In this document: piece after piece, positions 306-9,008 of the stretch
Layout of the letters: the number at the start of each line of letters is the position of its first letter
How positions within the stretch are numbered: position 1 is the first letter of the stretch
Assembly: GCA_036000965.1 (NCBI GenBank)
Contig: DASYUT010000166.1
Coordinates: forward strand, 1-64,000
Direction of reading: 5' to 3'
DNA length: 64,000 nucleotides
From: Actinomycetes bacterium
Lineage (GTDB): Bacteria; Actinomycetota; CALGFH01
Made by a program: the position numbers and the translations under genes
The notes under the pieces: model-generated
Database searches by the model: none
What the model saw: only the letters and a program-made list of their open reading frames with translations
Told to the model about the DNA's origin: nothing

Positions 306-427
306 CCCACGCGAGGCCGGGACGCGCCCACCGAGGGACTGGCGCCCCGCCCGCCCACGCGAGGCCGGGGACGCGCCCGCCCAGGGACTGGCGCCCCGCC
401 CACGCAAGGTCAGGGACGTGCCCGCCC
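306..427. repeat. GC-rich tandem repeat, about 47-bp unit
   Basis: Two full copies and one partial copy of a unit beginning CCCACGCGAGGCCGGG and containing AGGGACTGGCGCCCCG lie between two convergent genes. The third copy runs into the last codons of the FAH-family gene, so that protein's Pro/Arg-rich C-terminus is partly repeat-encoded. It is one of several minisatellites in this window. Confidence 0.75.
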
Positions 428-1195
428 GGGTGCCGGTGGCTCAGGCACGACCTGGTTGGCGAGCACGCCGACGCCCTCCACCTCGACCTCGACCCGGTCG
501 CCGACCGCGAGCGGGCCCACGCCGGCCGGGGTACCGGTGAGGACCACGTCGCCGGGCAGCAGCGTCATCACCGAGGAGATGAAGGCGAGCAGGCTGGCCA
601 CGCCCCGCTCCATCAGCGACGTGCGGCTCGACTGGCGCGGCTCGTCGTTGACCAGGGTGCGCAGGGCCAGGTCGCTCGAGTCCAGGTCGGTCTCGATCCA
701 CGGGCCGAGCGGGCAGAACGTGTCGAACCCCTTGGCCCGCGTCCACTGCCCGTCGGCGGTCTGCAGGTTGCGCGCGGTCACGTCGTTGGCGCAGGTGAAG
801 CCGAGCACTCCCTGGAGCGCGTCCGCCTCCCGCAGGCGGCGGCCGACCTTGCCGACGATCACCGCCAGCTCGCCCTCGAAGTCGACTCGGTCCACGCCGC
901 CCGGGTACACGATCGGGTCGTCCGGCCCGATCACCGCGGTCGACGGCTTGAGGAAGATGATCGGGGCGGACGGGACCTCGTTGCCCAGCTCCCGGGCGTG
1001 GGCCGCGTAGTTGCGGCCCACGCCGACCACCTTGGTCGGCAGCACCGGCGCGAGCAGCTTGGCGGCGCCGGCCGGGACCCGCTTGCCGGTGTAGTGGAAC
1101 GGCCCGAACGGGTGCGGGCTGATCGGCTCGATCTCCTCCCCTTCCAGGATCCCGAACTCGACCTGGTCGTCATGGCTGTAGCGGACGATTCGCAT
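410..1195 (-). CDS. Fumarylacetoacetate hydrolase (FAH) family protein
   Basis: A 261-residue protein of the FAH superfamily, which holds hydrolases, decarboxylases and isomerases acting on 2-oxo or acylpyruvate compounds with a divalent metal. The start ATG is preceded by AGGAGAGG. The N-terminal lid region (about 1-60) is followed by VVGVGRNYAAHARELG, IIFLKPSTAVIGPDDPI, the metal-binding VDFEGELAVIVGK, TCANDVTARNLQ, KGFDTFCPLGPW and GDVVLTGTPAGVGPL, in the order usual for the family. The length is normal for the short single-domain type. The substrate is not predictable. It lies 90 bp downstream of a HAD gene on the same strand and may be cotranscribed with the type III polyketide synthase genes, but no overlap proves that. 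Confidence 0.88.
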   Translation of the reverse strand: MRIVRYSHDDQVEFGILEGEEIEPISPHPFGPFHYTGKRVPAGAAKLLAPVLPTKVVGVGRNYAAHARELGNEVPSAPIIFLKPSTAVIGPDDPIVYPGGVDRVDFEGELAVIVGKVGRRLREADALQGVLGFTCANDVTARNLQTADGQWTRAKGFDTFCPLGPWIETDLDSSDLALRTLVNDEPRQSSRTSLMERGVASLLAFISSVMTLLPGDVVLTGTPAGVGPLAVGDRVEVEVEGVGVLANQVVPEPPAPGRARP

Positions 1196-1285: not shown

Positions 1286-1945
1286 TCAATCGAGCAGGCC
1301 CAGGACCCGCTCCAGCCCGCGCGGCCGGCCGGGGTGGACCGGGGGGAGCAGCAGGCAGGCGAGCCCGGCGCCGACCGCACCGCCGTCGGTGAGCGGGTTG
1401 TCGCCCACCATCACGGTCGCCTCCGGCGCCACGCCAAGCTCCGCACAGGCCGTCTCGAACAGCACCCGGGCCGGCTTGGCCGCCCCGTGCTCGTACGACA
1501 GCACGAACGACCCGACCAGGTCGAGCAGCCCGCAGCGCTCGAAGAACGGCCGCAGGTCGAAGCCGACGTCGCTCACCACCCCGACCGGCACCTCCCGTTC
1601 GGCCAGAGCTTCGAGGGTGGGGGCGGCGTCGGGGAACGGCGACCAGTGGTCAGGTCCGATCTCCCGCTCGTACAACGCCCCGGCCAGGCCCTCGGCAAGC
1701 GCCTCGGCCGGCCGGTACAGGTCGGTCCAGGCCGAGCGGTGCGCCTCCGGCGACAGGTCGCGGCCCCTGGCCAGCTCCTCAGGGGTCCGGGCCCGGGCCT
1801 GGATGTCGCTCCACAGGGTCGCCGCGACCGCCCCGTCCACCCGGACACCAAGCTCCCGGGCCGCGTCGACGATCGCCCCGCTGCCACCGCGCCGCTCGAA
1901 CAGGGTGTCACCCACGTCGAACAGCACGGCCCGGAGCGGTTGCAT
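1286..1945 (-). CDS. HAD family hydrolase
   Basis: A 219-residue haloacid dehalogenase-type protein. Motif I is AVLFDVGDTLFE (the first Asp would be the nucleophile), a helical cap domain follows (about 20-95), motif II is VGVVSDVGFDL, a conserved Lys lies in YEHGAAKPARVLF, and motif IV is VMVGDNPLTDGGAVGAGL. This fits a phosphatase with a C1 cap. The natural substrate cannot be told. It begins 30 bp after the stop of the type III polyketide synthase on the same strand, so cotranscription is likely. Its extreme C-terminus (RPRGLERVLGLLD) is ordinary for the family. Confidence 0.85.
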   Translation of the reverse strand: MQPLRAVLFDVGDTLFERRGGSGAIVDAARELGVRVDGAVAATLWSDIQARARTPEELARGRDLSPEAHRSAWTDLYRPAEALAEGLAGALYEREIGPDHWSPFPDAAPTLEALAEREVPVGVVSDVGFDLRPFFERCGLLDLVGSFVLSYEHGAAKPARVLFETACAELGVAPEATVMVGDNPLTDGGAVGAGLACLLLPPVHPGRPRGLERVLGLLD

Positions 1946-1975: not shown

Positions 1976-3013
1976 CTACGCCCGCAGCAGCAGGGCCTCC
2001 ATGGTGAGGCCGGTGCCGAAGCCGAGCACCACCACCCACTCCCCCACCCGCGGCACGCCCGAGTCGAGCAGCGACTCCAGGATGAACAGCACGGTCGCCG
2101 AGGAGCGGTTGCCGCCGTCGGCCAGCACCTCCCAGGACCGCGCGAGCTGCTCCTCGGCCAGCCCGAGGCGGCGCTGCACCCGCTCGAGGATCTCCGGGCC
2201 GCCCGGGTGGACCACCCAGTGGGGCACGTCGCCAGGCTTCAGGCCCCGGTTGGCCAGCAGCTGGTCCACGAGTCCGGCCAGCCCGCGCTCGACCAGCGCA
2301 GGCACCCGCGGGGAGAGCGACATGTGGAAGCCGTCGTCGTCGACCGTCCAGCCCATGCGGTTCTCGGTCCCGGGCACGGTCACCGTGCGGGCGCCAAGGA
2401 TCGCCGGGCCGGGCCCGTCCACGCCGACCACCGCGGCGCCTGCCCCGTCGCCGAACAGTGCCTGCGAGACCGCGTCCTCCCGGCTCCGAGCCGGCTGAAG
2501 GTGCAGGCTGCACAGCTCGACGCAGGCGACCAGGGCCTGGTCGCCGGACGCCCCGGCCAGGGCGGCCGCCGTCCGCAGCGCGGGCAGCGCCGCGTAGCAG
2601 CCCATGTGCCCGATCGCGAGCCGGCGCACGTTCGGGCCGAGCCCGAGGTCGGCGGCCAGGTGCACGTCCAGGCCGGGACCTGCGTAGCCGGTGCAGGAGA
2701 CCGCGAGCAGGTCGCCGACGCCGGCCAGGGCCTCCGGCCCGAGCCGGCCCAGGGCGCGCCGGGCGGCTTCGGCGCCGAGCCGGCGGGCGGCTGGCGGGAA
2801 CGCCCGCATCCGGTCCGCGGTCGTCGGCATGTTCGCGTAGAACGCGTCGACGTCGATGACGGCGGCCCGCCGTTCCACCCCGCTGGCCTCGAACACCTCC
2901 GCCCACGCCGGGTCCCAGCCGGGCAGCCGGGCGAAGAACGCGTCGACGATGTCGGCCTGCTTGTAGACGTGCTCGGGCACCACGGTGCCGACAGCCTGCA
3001 GCCGCGCGGTCAC
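1976..3013 (-). CDS. Type III polyketide synthase (chalcone/stilbene synthase family)
   Basis: A 345-residue type III polyketide synthase, which extends an acyl-CoA starter with malonyl-CoA on one active-site Cys. The whole catalytic triad is visible: Cys in GHMGCYAALPAL, His in VVHPGGPEILERV, Asn in DGGNRSSATVLFIL. The dimer/active-site segment VSCTGYAGPGLDVHL and the C-terminal VVVLGFGTGLTMEALLL also match. The GTG start overlaps the methyltransferase stop as GTGA, which decides it over a longer open frame. Bacterial relatives make alkylresorcinols, alkylpyrones or tetrahydroxynaphthalene; the upstream acyl-CoA dehydrogenase-like and methyltransferase genes suggest a fatty-acyl starter and an O- or C-methylated product, which is inference. 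Confidence 0.93.
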   Translation of the reverse strand: MTARLQAVGTVVPEHVYKQADIVDAFFARLPGWDPAWAEVFEASGVERRAAVIDVDAFYANMPTTADRMRAFPPAARRLGAEAARRALGRLGPEALAGVGDLLAVSCTGYAGPGLDVHLAADLGLGPNVRRLAIGHMGCYAALPALRTAAALAGASGDQALVACVELCSLHLQPARSREDAVSQALFGDGAGAAVVGVDGPGPAILGARTVTVPGTENRMGWTVDDDGFHMSLSPRVPALVERGLAGLVDQLLANRGLKPGDVPHWVVHPGGPEILERVQRRLGLAEEQLARSWEVLADGGNRSSATVLFILESLLDSGVPRVGEWVVVLGFGTGLTMEALLLRA

Positions 3014-3840
3014 GGAGCGCTCACTCCGGGTGGGTGCCCGCCCGCGTGCGCCTTGCGGTCGTGGCCTCGGTGCCCACCCGCGGGCGCCTTGCGGTAGTGG
3101 CCGAGGTAGGAGGCGCGCCGGTCGCGGCCGGTGGCGAACTCGGGCAGCGGGAGGCTGCGCCGGGTCAGGCCGCGGACGATGTCGGCCGGCCCGATCCGGG
3201 GAGCCAGCCCGGCGGTGGCCACCGCCTCGAAGCCGGCCCGGGTGAGCAGGCGGTCGAGCTCCCGGGGGCGGATGAACAGTCGCCAGTCGTGCGTGCCTCT
3301 GGGCACGAAGCCGAGCAGCCGCTCGGCCCCGAACAGGGCGGTGAACCAGGCCCAGGCGGTGCGGTTGATGGTGTCGAACAGGAAGCTCCCGCCCGGGCGG
3401 AGCACCCTGGCAACCTCCTCCACCACGGCGGGCAGGTCCGGGATGTGCTCGAGGACGTCGGCGGCCACCACCGCGTCGAAGCTGCCGGAGGCGAACGGCA
3501 GCCGCTCCATCCGCCCAGCGGCCGGCCGGAAGCCGTCCGGCACCGCCCGGCGCGCCACCAGCAGGCAGGCGGGTGACAGGTCCAGGCCGGTCACGACCGC
3601 CCCCGCCTCGGCCAGGCCCTTGGCGACCAGGCCGCCGCCGCAGCCGGCGTCGAGCACCTGGCGCCCGTCCGGGTCGCCCAGCTCGCGCAGGTAGAACTCG
3701 AGGCGCGGCCCGTTCATGGCGTGCAGCAGCCCGGCCGGGCCGTTGGGGTTCCACCACAGCTCGTGGAACTCGGCGTAGTGCTCGAGGTCGATCTCGTACC
3801 GGGCCGGCGGCACCGGGCGGGTCCGGTCGATCGTCCTCAC
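3010..3840 (-). CDS. SAM-dependent methyltransferase, UbiG-like
   Basis: A 276-residue class I methyltransferase. The SAM-binding motif VLDAGCGGGLVAKGLAEAG is followed by TGLDLSPACL, DAVVAADVLEHIPD and ARVLRPGGSFLFDTINRT, the pattern of UbiG-type O-methyltransferases. The GTG start overlaps the dehydrogenase stop (GTGA) and the stop overlaps the polyketide synthase start, so translation is probably coupled across all three genes. The likely role is methylation of the type III polyketide product. The C-terminus carries an odd near-duplication, HYRKAPAGGH then HDRKAHAGGH, encoded by a short tandem repeat at about 3020-3095 and lying outside the methyltransferase fold. Confidence 0.9.
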   Translation of the reverse strand: MRTIDRTRPVPPARYEIDLEHYAEFHELWWNPNGPAGLLHAMNGPRLEFYLRELGDPDGRQVLDAGCGGGLVAKGLAEAGAVVTGLDLSPACLLVARRAVPDGFRPAAGRMERLPFASGSFDAVVAADVLEHIPDLPAVVEEVARVLRPGGSFLFDTINRTAWAWFTALFGAERLLGFVPRGTHDWRLFIRPRELDRLLTRAGFEAVATAGLAPRIGPADIVRGLTRRSLPLPEFATGRDRRASYLGHYRKAPAGGHRGHDRKAHAGGHPPGVSAP

Positions 3841-5021
3841 GGAAGGGCTCCTCGCTCGCCTGAAGCGGGTGAGCCACCGCCGAGCTCGACCCGGCCCACC
3901 CATTGCAGGGTGGCGTCGTGGGAGGGCGGCAGCAGCAGTCCGGCGTGCGCGTCGCGCAGCAGCCGCTCGACGGGCCCGGACCGCAGGTACGCGGTGCCTC
4001 CGGCGGTCCGCAGGGCGAGCGAGCAGACGTGCACCGCCGCCTGGCAGACGAACAGCTTGGCGGCTGCCATCTCGCCGTAGTGGGCGACCGGGTCGGGGTT
4101 GGGCGCCCGGCCCACCGCCGCGTAGAGGGTCGCCCGGGCCGCGTCGAGGTGCATGCGCATCTCCCCGACCGCCTGCTGGACCCCGGGCAGCTCCGACAGG
4201 GTCTGGGCCAGCCCCTCGTTGCGCCGCCTGGGCAGGCCGTGCACGACATGCCGGTAGGACGCCTCGGCCGCGCCCAGGAACACGCTCGCGAACGACGGCC
4301 AGGACCAGTGCGAGCCGGTCAGGAAGCTGGCCGCCACCGCGAAGCCCTGATCCACCACGTGCTCGTCGGGGATGAACAGGTCGTCGATGGCGAGCACGTG
4401 GCTGCCGGTGGCCCGCATGCCCATCGCCTTCCAGTCCCCCACCACCCGTACGCCCTTGTCGGGCTTGGGGACCAGGAAGCCGATCGGCTCCCGGCCGGTC
4501 TCGGTCTCGACCGCGGCGGACAGGAACAGGTGGGTGGCCCGCGGGTACCCGGTGAAGAACGTCTTCATCCCCGACAGCCGGTAGCCGCCGTCCACCCGCA
4601 CCGCGGTCGACGCCTGGTACCACCAGTTCCCCCCGGACTCTGGCTCGGAGAACCCGCCCGCCAGCATCGCACCGTCGCTGGCGACCAGCTTGAGGAACGG
4701 CTCGACCCTGTCCCGCAGCCCCTCGGCGAGGATCCCGACCCCGTGCAGGTGCATGTTCACCGCCAGCGCGGTGGCCGGTGAGCCCTCGGCAAGCCGGCTC
4801 TGTGCGGCGACCAGGTCGAGGGCGCTCGCACCGAGGCCGCCCAGCTCGCGCGGGACCGTGATGGCGGTGTAGCCGCTGGCCACGAGCTCGTCGACGTCCT
4901 CGTGGGCGAACGCATCGGCCTCGTCGTAGCGGGCGGCCCGTTCGGCCAGGGCCGGCACCAGCCGCGCCGCGAGGTCGACGACCTCATGCCGGGGGGCTGC
5001 TGGACGGTCGGACTGGTCCAT
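3837..5021 (-). CDS. Acyl-CoA dehydrogenase-like flavoprotein
   Basis: A 394-residue protein of the acyl-CoA dehydrogenase fold: an N-terminal helical domain with ITVPRELGGLGASALDL, a central beta domain with LAGGFSEPESGGNWW and GMKTFFTGYPRATHLF, and a C-terminal helical domain with LALRTAGGTAYLRSGPVERLLRDA. Where many family members carry the catalytic Glu (EGT motif) this protein reads LPPSHDATLQ, so it may use a base elsewhere or be a flavin oxygenase-like branch rather than a true dehydrogenase. It is first in a three-gene block with 4-bp overlaps, upstream of a methyltransferase and a type III polyketide synthase. A role in preparing an unsaturated acyl-CoA starter or in tailoring is possible. 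Confidence 0.85.
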   Translation of the reverse strand: MDQSDRPAAPRHEVVDLAARLVPALAERAARYDEADAFAHEDVDELVASGYTAITVPRELGGLGASALDLVAAQSRLAEGSPATALAVNMHLHGVGILAEGLRDRVEPFLKLVASDGAMLAGGFSEPESGGNWWYQASTAVRVDGGYRLSGMKTFFTGYPRATHLFLSAAVETETGREPIGFLVPKPDKGVRVVGDWKAMGMRATGSHVLAIDDLFIPDEHVVDQGFAVAASFLTGSHWSWPSFASVFLGAAEASYRHVVHGLPRRRNEGLAQTLSELPGVQQAVGEMRMHLDAARATLYAAVGRAPNPDPVAHYGEMAAAKLFVCQAAVHVCSLALRTAGGTAYLRSGPVERLLRDAHAGLLLPPSHDATLQWVGRVELGGGSPASGERGALP

Positions 5022-8372: not shown

Positions 8373-9008
8373 GTGGGCGGGACCCTGGAGCTGGCCGACT
8401 ACCGGGAGCGGGTCGCCCGGCTCTACCTGGCCGAGCCGTCGGAGGGGGAGGCCGGGTTGGCGGCGTTCCGGCGCGGCCGCGACCGCCTGTTCCTCGAGCA
8501 CCCCCAGTCGCCGCTCACCGTCGAGCAGCGCGAGGCCGTGCCCGGCCTGCCGTACTTCCCGTACGAGCCAGACGCCTGGCTGGTCTCCCGGCTCGGCCCG
8601 GTCGACGAGGGCGACGAGCTGGTGATCGACACCGGGAGCGAGGACGGGGTGGTGCGGTACCGCCGGGTCGGGCGCTTGGCCACGCCCTACGGCGGCCTCA
8701 CCTTGTTCTGGACGCTCGGCTATGGGGGCGGCCTGTTCCTGCCGTTCCGGGACGCGACCGCCGGCCAGGAGACCTACGGGGCCGGACGCTACCTGACCGA
8801 CACGATCAAGGGCACCTTCGGCCGCGGTCTCGCGGTCGACGGCGATCGCGTGGTGCTCGACTTCAACTACGCCTACAACCCTTCGTGCGCCTACAACCCG
8901 CGCTGGGCCTGCCCGCTGCCTCCGCCCGAGAACCGCCTGGACGCGCCGGTCCGGGCCGGGGAACTGGTCTTCCCCCATCCCGCGGGCCTCGATCGCCATC
9001 ACGGTTGA
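8373..9008 (+). CDS. DUF1684 domain-containing protein
   Basis: A 211-residue protein with the features of DUF1684: an N-terminal helix ADYRERVARLYLAEPSEGEAGLAAFRRGRDRLFLEHPQSPL leading into PGLPYFPYEPDAW, then DTGSEDGVVRYRRVGRL and the C-terminal FNYAYNPSCAYNPRWACPLPPPENRL block, the most conserved part of the family. The GTG start at 8373 is preceded by GAGGAGG at a good distance. The family's biochemical function is unknown to me; the conserved aromatic, Asn and Cys cluster hints at ligand or metal binding. No operon partner is evident. Confidence 0.88.
   Translation: MGGTLELADYRERVARLYLAEPSEGEAGLAAFRRGRDRLFLEHPQSPLTVEQREAVPGLPYFPYEPDAWLVSRLGPVDEGDELVIDTGSEDGVVRYRRVGRLATPYGGLTLFWTLGYGGGLFLPFRDATAGQETYGAGRYLTDTIKGTFGRGLAVDGDRVVLDFNYAYNPSCAYNPRWACPLPPPENRLDAPVRAGELVFPHPAGLDRHHG

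Follow-up and report, generated by a model that had tools for sequence, protein, structure and literature searches.

A three-gene type III polyketide synthase cassette with an acyl-CoA dehydrogenase-fold flavoenzyme, probably for a methylated quinone-like lipid, in an actinobacterial class

The window analyzed here is a stretch of 64,000 nucleotides (contig C166, positions 1 to 64000) from the 6.47 Mb genome, in 358 contigs, of an Actinomycetes bacterium assigned to the class CALGFH01 of the Actinomycetota. It carries three overlapping genes, encoding a flavoenzyme of the acyl-CoA dehydrogenase (ACAD) fold, a UbiG-type methyltransferase (MT) and a type III polyketide synthase (PKS). Our analysis suggests, with a probability that we put at about 0.7, that this trio makes a long-chain phenol, methylates it and oxidizes its ring to a quinone-like lipid, an alkyl-methoxy-(hydro)quinone. 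On this reading, the ACAD-type cassette for tailoring alkylresorcinols also occurs in a further actinobacterial class.

Family assignments and gene calls confirm the three-gene cassette with 4-bp overlaps described in the original prediction, both overlaps consisting of a GTGA shared by adjoining genes (Table 1). At E ≤ 0.001 the genome has no PF02797 match other than this synthase. The methyltransferase scores 159.2 bits against the NCBIfam UbiG model, whose cut-off is 102.95 bits; for the synthase and the ACAD-like protein, none of their listed NCBIfam models was passed. From the gene overlaps we infer that the trio forms a single operon. Scans for promoters, terminators and Rfam families around the trio returned 0, 0 and 0 matches.

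The cassette is conserved throughout the available class sample, which consists of three genomes including that of the window, the family and class searches having returned the identical three. The ACAD-like gene and the complete trio are present in all three, and the order ACAD-MT-PKS and both 4-bp overlaps are kept in both relatives (L061 and L062), where identity to the window proteins is 79-80% for the ACAD-like protein, 68-70% for the methyltransferase (67-72% in a separate methyltransferase comparison) and 70-71% for the synthase. Such recurrence in the rest of the family makes the trio more than a chance arrangement.

To judge what the flavoenzyme might do, we considered both its residues and its predicted structure. 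In a MAFFT alignment with three true ACADs, Pro365 stands where those enzymes have the catalytic Glu of IYEGT, in line with the earlier observation that the EGT Glu is missing, and nine cassette ACAD-like proteins also have Pro there. At the ACAD Thr/Ser column taken for the alternative Glu site, presumably that of T255 of medium-chain acyl-CoA dehydrogenase (cf. the title of 1ege), the window protein carries Ser240. Its closest PDB chains by sequence are 5z8t and 5gj7, and its AlphaFold2 model (predicted local distance difference test score of 91.5) is closest in fold to 5z8t, a structure bearing the title flavin-containing monooxygenase (Z 46.4, root-mean-square deviation 2.4, 369 aligned residues). 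Foldseek ranks 5gj7, 5z8t and KijD3, which we take to be a sugar N-oxygenase, at the top, and a literature search on PDB 5GJ7/5Z8T found nothing related. With the fold present, the catalytic Glu lost and the nearest structure titled a monooxygenase, the window protein is likely an ACAD-fold flavin monooxygenase, which lends weight to the tailoring oxygenase originally proposed.

The synthase retains a Cys-His-Asn triad that is invariant across the alignment, Cys139 and His269 being present in 37 of 37 synthases and Asn302 in all 36 with a letter in that column. Trp222 is shared by 34 of the 37 synthases, with Leu in L080 and PKS18 and Gly in stilbene synthase, and Thr334, in the GFGPG loop, is found in all three class members, the 33 other synthases without a gap in that column all having Pro (one has a gap). 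In a review, Trp281 of the alkylresorcinol synthase ArsB is reported to steer cyclization to the resorcinol, a Gly mutant to make pyrones, and Leu266 is named as a tunnel residue of PKS18 (PMC6274091); a further paper describes a Trp at the ArsB 281 position in polyketide-quinone synthases (PMC9927152). Trp222 is tentatively equated with ArsB Trp281 through PKS18 Leu266, ArsB itself lying outside our alignment, and would on this basis favor resorcinol closure.

A comparable gene set is said to exist in the agq cluster of Actinoplanes missouriensis, which reportedly includes a UbiA prenyltransferase beside methyltransferase, ACAD-like and PKS genes, and in which AgqC is reportedly an ACAD homolog that hydroxylates the ring. 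To place the class's trio in a wider context, we searched the phylum for the synthase, finding matches at E ≤ 1e-40 in 78 of 396 genomes, the window's included, and compared neighborhoods from 20 genomes among the 22 with the highest-ranking PKS matches besides the window's, using the window proteins as queries and gene calls from our own open reading frame callers and extended tblastn matches. All three genes were detected in 11 of the 20, namely the two relatives and nine further loci (L064, L066, L067, L068, L071, L072, L073, L074 and L075). Four neighborhoods (L063, L065, L069 and L070) hold methyltransferase and synthase without an ACAD match, one (L079) has only a weak methyltransferase match beside the synthase, and in the remaining four (L076, L077, L078 and L080) these queries found the synthase alone. 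Refuting the original prediction would have required, among other things, a lack of conservation, but the trio is present in all three class members and the three gene kinds occur together in the nine further loci.

The nine further loci present a gene order, MT-ACAD-PKS, that differs from that of the class. The ACAD and PKS genes overlap by 7 bp in six of the nine, two of these six having unsure starts (L066 and L074), and the exact combination of 4- and 7-bp overlaps occurs in four of them; L073 instead presents gaps of 44 and 58 bp between cassette genes, and a UbiA gene adjoins its methyltransferase gene on the opposite strand. The window methyltransferase is 31-38% identical to the nine methyltransferases adjoining related synthases. 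Intervals of about 0.8-1.1 kb lie between the methyltransferase, ACAD and PKS genes of L068 and L075, and in L074 a gene for a pyridine-nucleotide-disulphide oxidoreductase (L074:6682-7719), which might be a reductase partner, lies ahead of the cassette. On reading, L078 and L079, the two members viewed of another synthase group, both have a methyltransferase gene and a GxGxxG-type flavin adenine dinucleotide (FAD) monooxygenase gene near the synthase.

In 12 neighborhoods of lower-scoring synthases, neither an ACAD match (0/12) nor an adjacent methyltransferase match (0/12) was detected, a weak methyltransferase match in L164 lying more than 4 kb from the synthase. A UbiA match was seen near the synthase in five of these 12 (L164, L166, L167, L170 and L171), a possible PKS-prenyltransferase pair. 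Searching with the flavoenzyme at E ≤ 1e-45 retrieved 4 of the 396 phylum genomes, three of them the class members and the fourth (G117) with its flavoenzyme gene about 450 kb from its synthase; this count is uninformative on the frequency of the trio, because so stringent a threshold misses AgqC-like proteins. When named genomes were scanned for relatives of the flavoenzyme and the best 80 of 437 were compared, beyond the class relative G001 no PKS match at E ≤ 1e-7 appeared in the fetched flanks of the other 79, some of them short contigs, so that no further named organism with the trio was found among the matches listed. Our searches, which covered open-licence papers, brought up no publication on the class's cassette.

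To examine how the class cassette relates to these loci, we inferred phylogenies of both enzymes. In a careful synthase tree rooted on stilbene synthase, in which L080, L054 and PKS18 were left out of the 37 rows, the three class synthases join 15 agq-like synthases and five of the L078/L079 group with support 96/96; two of the 15, L076 and L077, have neither a methyltransferase nor an ACAD match nearby. For the flavoenzyme, a tree of 67 rows (leaving out L093, a fragment, and three in four loci above L122) and a careful tree of 38 rows without the true ACADs place the class and AgqC-like proteins on separate long branches. A single clade of class and agq-like proteins lacks joining support in either case and is not rejected by the approximately unbiased (AU) test in both, with p 0.54 for the class synthases with the 15 agq-like ones and p 0.48 for the flavoenzymes. 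These separate branches, the different gene order and the 28-34% identity of the flavoenzyme to those of the nine MT-ACAD-PKS loci would also be expected if the class had recruited its flavoenzyme independently, two ACAD-fold lineages having converged on one cassette. We regard this as possible but doubtful and, despite the good score against 5z8t, leave it as a rival only, because the AU tests do not reject one clade.

The pathway that we consider most probable would start from a long-chain acyl starter, which the type III PKS would extend with three malonyl units to a tetraketide; aldol closure of this chain by the synthase, with decarboxylation, would give a 5-alkylresorcinol. The UbiG-type enzyme would then O-methylate one ring hydroxyl, and the ACAD-fold protein, its dehydrogenase base lost, would be supplied with reduced flavin by a reductase whose gene lies at another locus, form a C4a-hydroperoxyflavin and hydroxylate the ring, these two tailoring steps possibly occurring in reverse order. 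The product would be an alkyl-methoxy-hydroquinone able to oxidize to the quinone. Substrates, step order and product are proposed here from the enzyme families and from work on loseolamycin, agq and polyketide quinones, while the gene set, its conservation, the synthase triad and the loss of the Glu are read directly from sequence and the fold is predicted. In favor of the pathway are the recurrence of the trio in the class, the triad together with Trp222, the grouping of the synthase with those of MT/ACAD-like cassettes, the UbiG score, Pro365 with the 5z8t match, the loseolamycin locus and the two Flavin_Reduct genes elsewhere in the genome.

Several observations weigh against this pathway. 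Trp222 also occurs in synthases without methyltransferase or ACAD neighbors, and for that reason fails to single out the cassette, and the Pro-to-Thr change at Thr334 could alter the product of the synthase. True ACADs, together with 5gj7, are tied at Z 44-45 just behind 5z8t, so that the fold alone fails to separate an oxygenase from a dehydrogenase. No Flavin_Reduct gene lies on the contig of the trio, the two in the genome being located elsewhere. The best PDB sequence match of the synthase is PKS18, which we take to be an alkylpyrone synthase, and a quick tree including PKS18 groups the class synthases with it and ten others, with weak support (83). Lastly, in the loseolamycin work the activating promoter was placed before the synthase gene losA and the biosynthetic scheme uses losA only, with no role assigned to the accompanying methyltransferase and ACAD genes (PMC7587189).

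The resemblance to PKS18, the weak grouping with it and the altered GFGPG loop are the observations expected if the synthase made alkylpyrones, which the methyltransferase would turn into a methoxy-pyrone and the flavoenzyme would oxidize on the alkyl chain or ring. Against this, the Leu of PKS18 is replaced by Trp222 in the window synthase, and alkylresorcinols are what the loseolamycin locus yields with these gene kinds; we hold the pyrone route to be distinctly unlikely. Less probable still is that the ACAD-like protein works as a true dehydrogenase or desaturase supplying an unsaturated acyl starter to the synthase. The near-equal scores of true ACAD folds would allow for it, but Pro365 replaces Glu in the EGT column, Ser240 stands at the presumed alternative Glu site, and the best match by both sequence and fold is titled a monooxygenase.

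Within the quinone-lipid reading, the presence of the cassette in the same neighborhood in 3/3 class genomes suggests a standing cell function, such as that of a membrane or redox lipid, more than a sporadic antibiotic, and the product may be an accessory lipid of the membrane or of redox metabolism. As a replacement for menaquinone it was set aside: MenD scores above the cut-off in two of the three class genomes, including the window's (the third has only a partial copy, at the end of a contig, that scores under it), and none of the three has a match to PF02621, a family of the futalosine pathway. With MenD encoded in the window's genome, where by eye a MenA-like UbiA gene shares its contig, the lipid probably adds to menaquinone and does not replace it. 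The genome encodes four UbiA proteins, none on contig C166, which ends 1975 bp past the synthase gene; in L062 the corresponding side extends for 4.8 kb and carries FAA hydrolase, glycosyltransferase and tRNA synthetase genes. A bolder proposal, which we consider speculative and unlikely, is that the class keeps an unprenylated alkyl-methoxy-quinone lipid beside menaquinone through a synthase with a remodeled GFGPG loop and an ACAD-fold ring hydroxylase recruited apart from that of agq-type clusters, and so represents a third independent route from alkylresorcinol to quinone.

Among the flanking genes (Table 1) is one for an FAA hydrolase. In the relatives it begins 3 and 9 bp past the stop codon of the synthase gene; in the window it lies near that gene, and the protein is conserved at 74-77% identity, which would fit a fourth pathway enzyme cleaving a beta-diketone or a ring-opened product. 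In L062, however, glycosyltransferase and glutamyl-type tRNA synthetase genes lie beyond it, an order that fits what we take to be the actinobacterial Rv2993c-gltX arrangement, and the tRNA synthetase gene in particular led us to downgrade it as a pathway gene. A HAD-family gene moreover splits it from the synthase in the window, and no FAA-hydrolase match was found in the 18 other PKS neighborhoods compared, some of which are short contigs. We therefore give a fourth-enzyme role only a slim chance; the FAA hydrolase is probably a housekeeping neighbor and a bystander to the trio.

Table 1. Positions of the cassette genes, of residues discussed in the text and of flanking features (window coordinates unless a locus is named)
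Feature	Position	Strand	Details
ACAD-fold flavoenzyme gene	3837-5021	-	ATG start, 394 amino acids; four Pfam Acyl-CoA_dh domain models, each above cut-off
UbiG-type S-adenosylmethionine (SAM) methyltransferase gene	3010-3840	-	GTG start, 276 amino acids; Pfam Methyltransf_11 and others above cut-off; NCBIfam UbiG
Type III PKS gene	1976-3013	-	GTG start, 345 amino acids; Pfam PF00195/PF02797 (Chal_sti_synt_N, _C) above cut-off
ACAD-like stop / MT start overlap	3837-3840	-	GTGA, 4 bp; identical overlap in two class relatives
MT stop / PKS start overlap	3010-3013	-	GTGA, 4 bp; identical overlap in two class relatives
Flavoenzyme Pro365	3927-3929	-	Catalytic Glu column (IYEGT) of true ACADs; MAFFT alignment with three true ACADs
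PKS Cys139, Cys-His-Asn triad	2597-2599	-	From alignment
PKS His269, Cys-His-Asn triad	2207-2209	-	From alignment
PKS Asn302, Cys-His-Asn triad	2108-2110	-	From alignment
PKS Trp222	2348-2350	-	Column of PKS18 Leu266 and stilbene synthase Gly
PKS Thr334, GFGPG loop	2012-2014	-	Thr in 3/3 class members; Pro in 33/33 other synthases compared, gap aside
36-bp unit, 1.9 copies, inside 3' end of MT gene	3033-3102	.	Encodes His/Gly-rich C-terminal tail absent from two class relatives
HAD-family hydrolase gene	1286-1945	-	Between PKS and FAA hydrolase; window genome only; probably outside pathway
FAA-hydrolase family gene	410-1195	-	Rv2993c-like N-terminus; conserved neighbor, probably bystander
DUF1684 gene, upstream of trio in 3/3 class members	window 8373-9008; L061 7818-8429; L062 9499-10119		Pfam in relatives, similarity in window

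Comparison with characterized systems places the cassette among known relatives. In the loseolamycin locus of Micromonospora endolithica, UbiA, a putative methyltransferase, an acyl-CoA dehydrogenase and losA are consecutive rows of the published Table 1, and activation of losA gave alkylresorcinols; in that paper the methyltransferase and dehydrogenase appear in the gene table only (PMC7587189). The window shares with this locus the grouping of methyltransferase, ACAD and type III PKS genes; it differs in having the order ACAD-MT-PKS, against MT-ACAD-PKS in the table, and no UbiA on its contig. The agq cluster, with the synthase AgqA and agqB to agqD, is reported to yield alkyl-O-dihydrogeranyl-methoxyhydroquinones (Awakawa 2011, doi 10.1002/cbic.201000628). 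That product is prenylated, in contrast to what a contig without UbiA would suggest for the window, and the likeness is one of description, agq-like loci standing in for the agq sequences. Relative to the gene set of both clusters, the window thus presents synthase, methyltransferase and ACAD-like genes in one putative operon without a linked UbiA. A methylated alkylresorcinol or quinone lipid, as originally predicted, remains the likely product, but the suggestion that it had not been seen before is not supported, given a loseolamycin locus with the same gene kinds and the known agq cluster.

Similar logic is found with other oxidoreductases. The srsABC and pkqABC operons combine an alkylresorcinol synthase with a methyltransferase and an oxidoreductase or hydroxylase to give an alkyl benzoquinone (PMC9927152), with both tailoring genes downstream of the synthase and not upstream as in the window; L078 and L079 resemble this format on reading, their oxidoreductase starting with a GxGxxG FAD motif and not being ACAD-like. 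The hidABC operon and a planctomycetal trio, from planctomycetes and cyanobacteria, are likewise described as methyltransferase/oxidoreductase/type III PKS operons for alkylresorcinol-derived lipids (PMC10896814), and differ from the window in gene order and phylum and in an oxidoreductase there called FAD-dependent. The class offers a natural test of the role of the ACAD-like gene in such cassettes, to which the loseolamycin text assigns none, and of how replacing Pro by Thr in the GFGPG loop affects a type III PKS. Together, these comparisons indicate that this kind of cassette is already known in other actinobacteria and that the window carries a divergent, rearranged form of it, distinguished by its gene order, by a contig without a prenyltransferase gene and by the GFGPG-loop Thr in place of Pro that is particular to the class.

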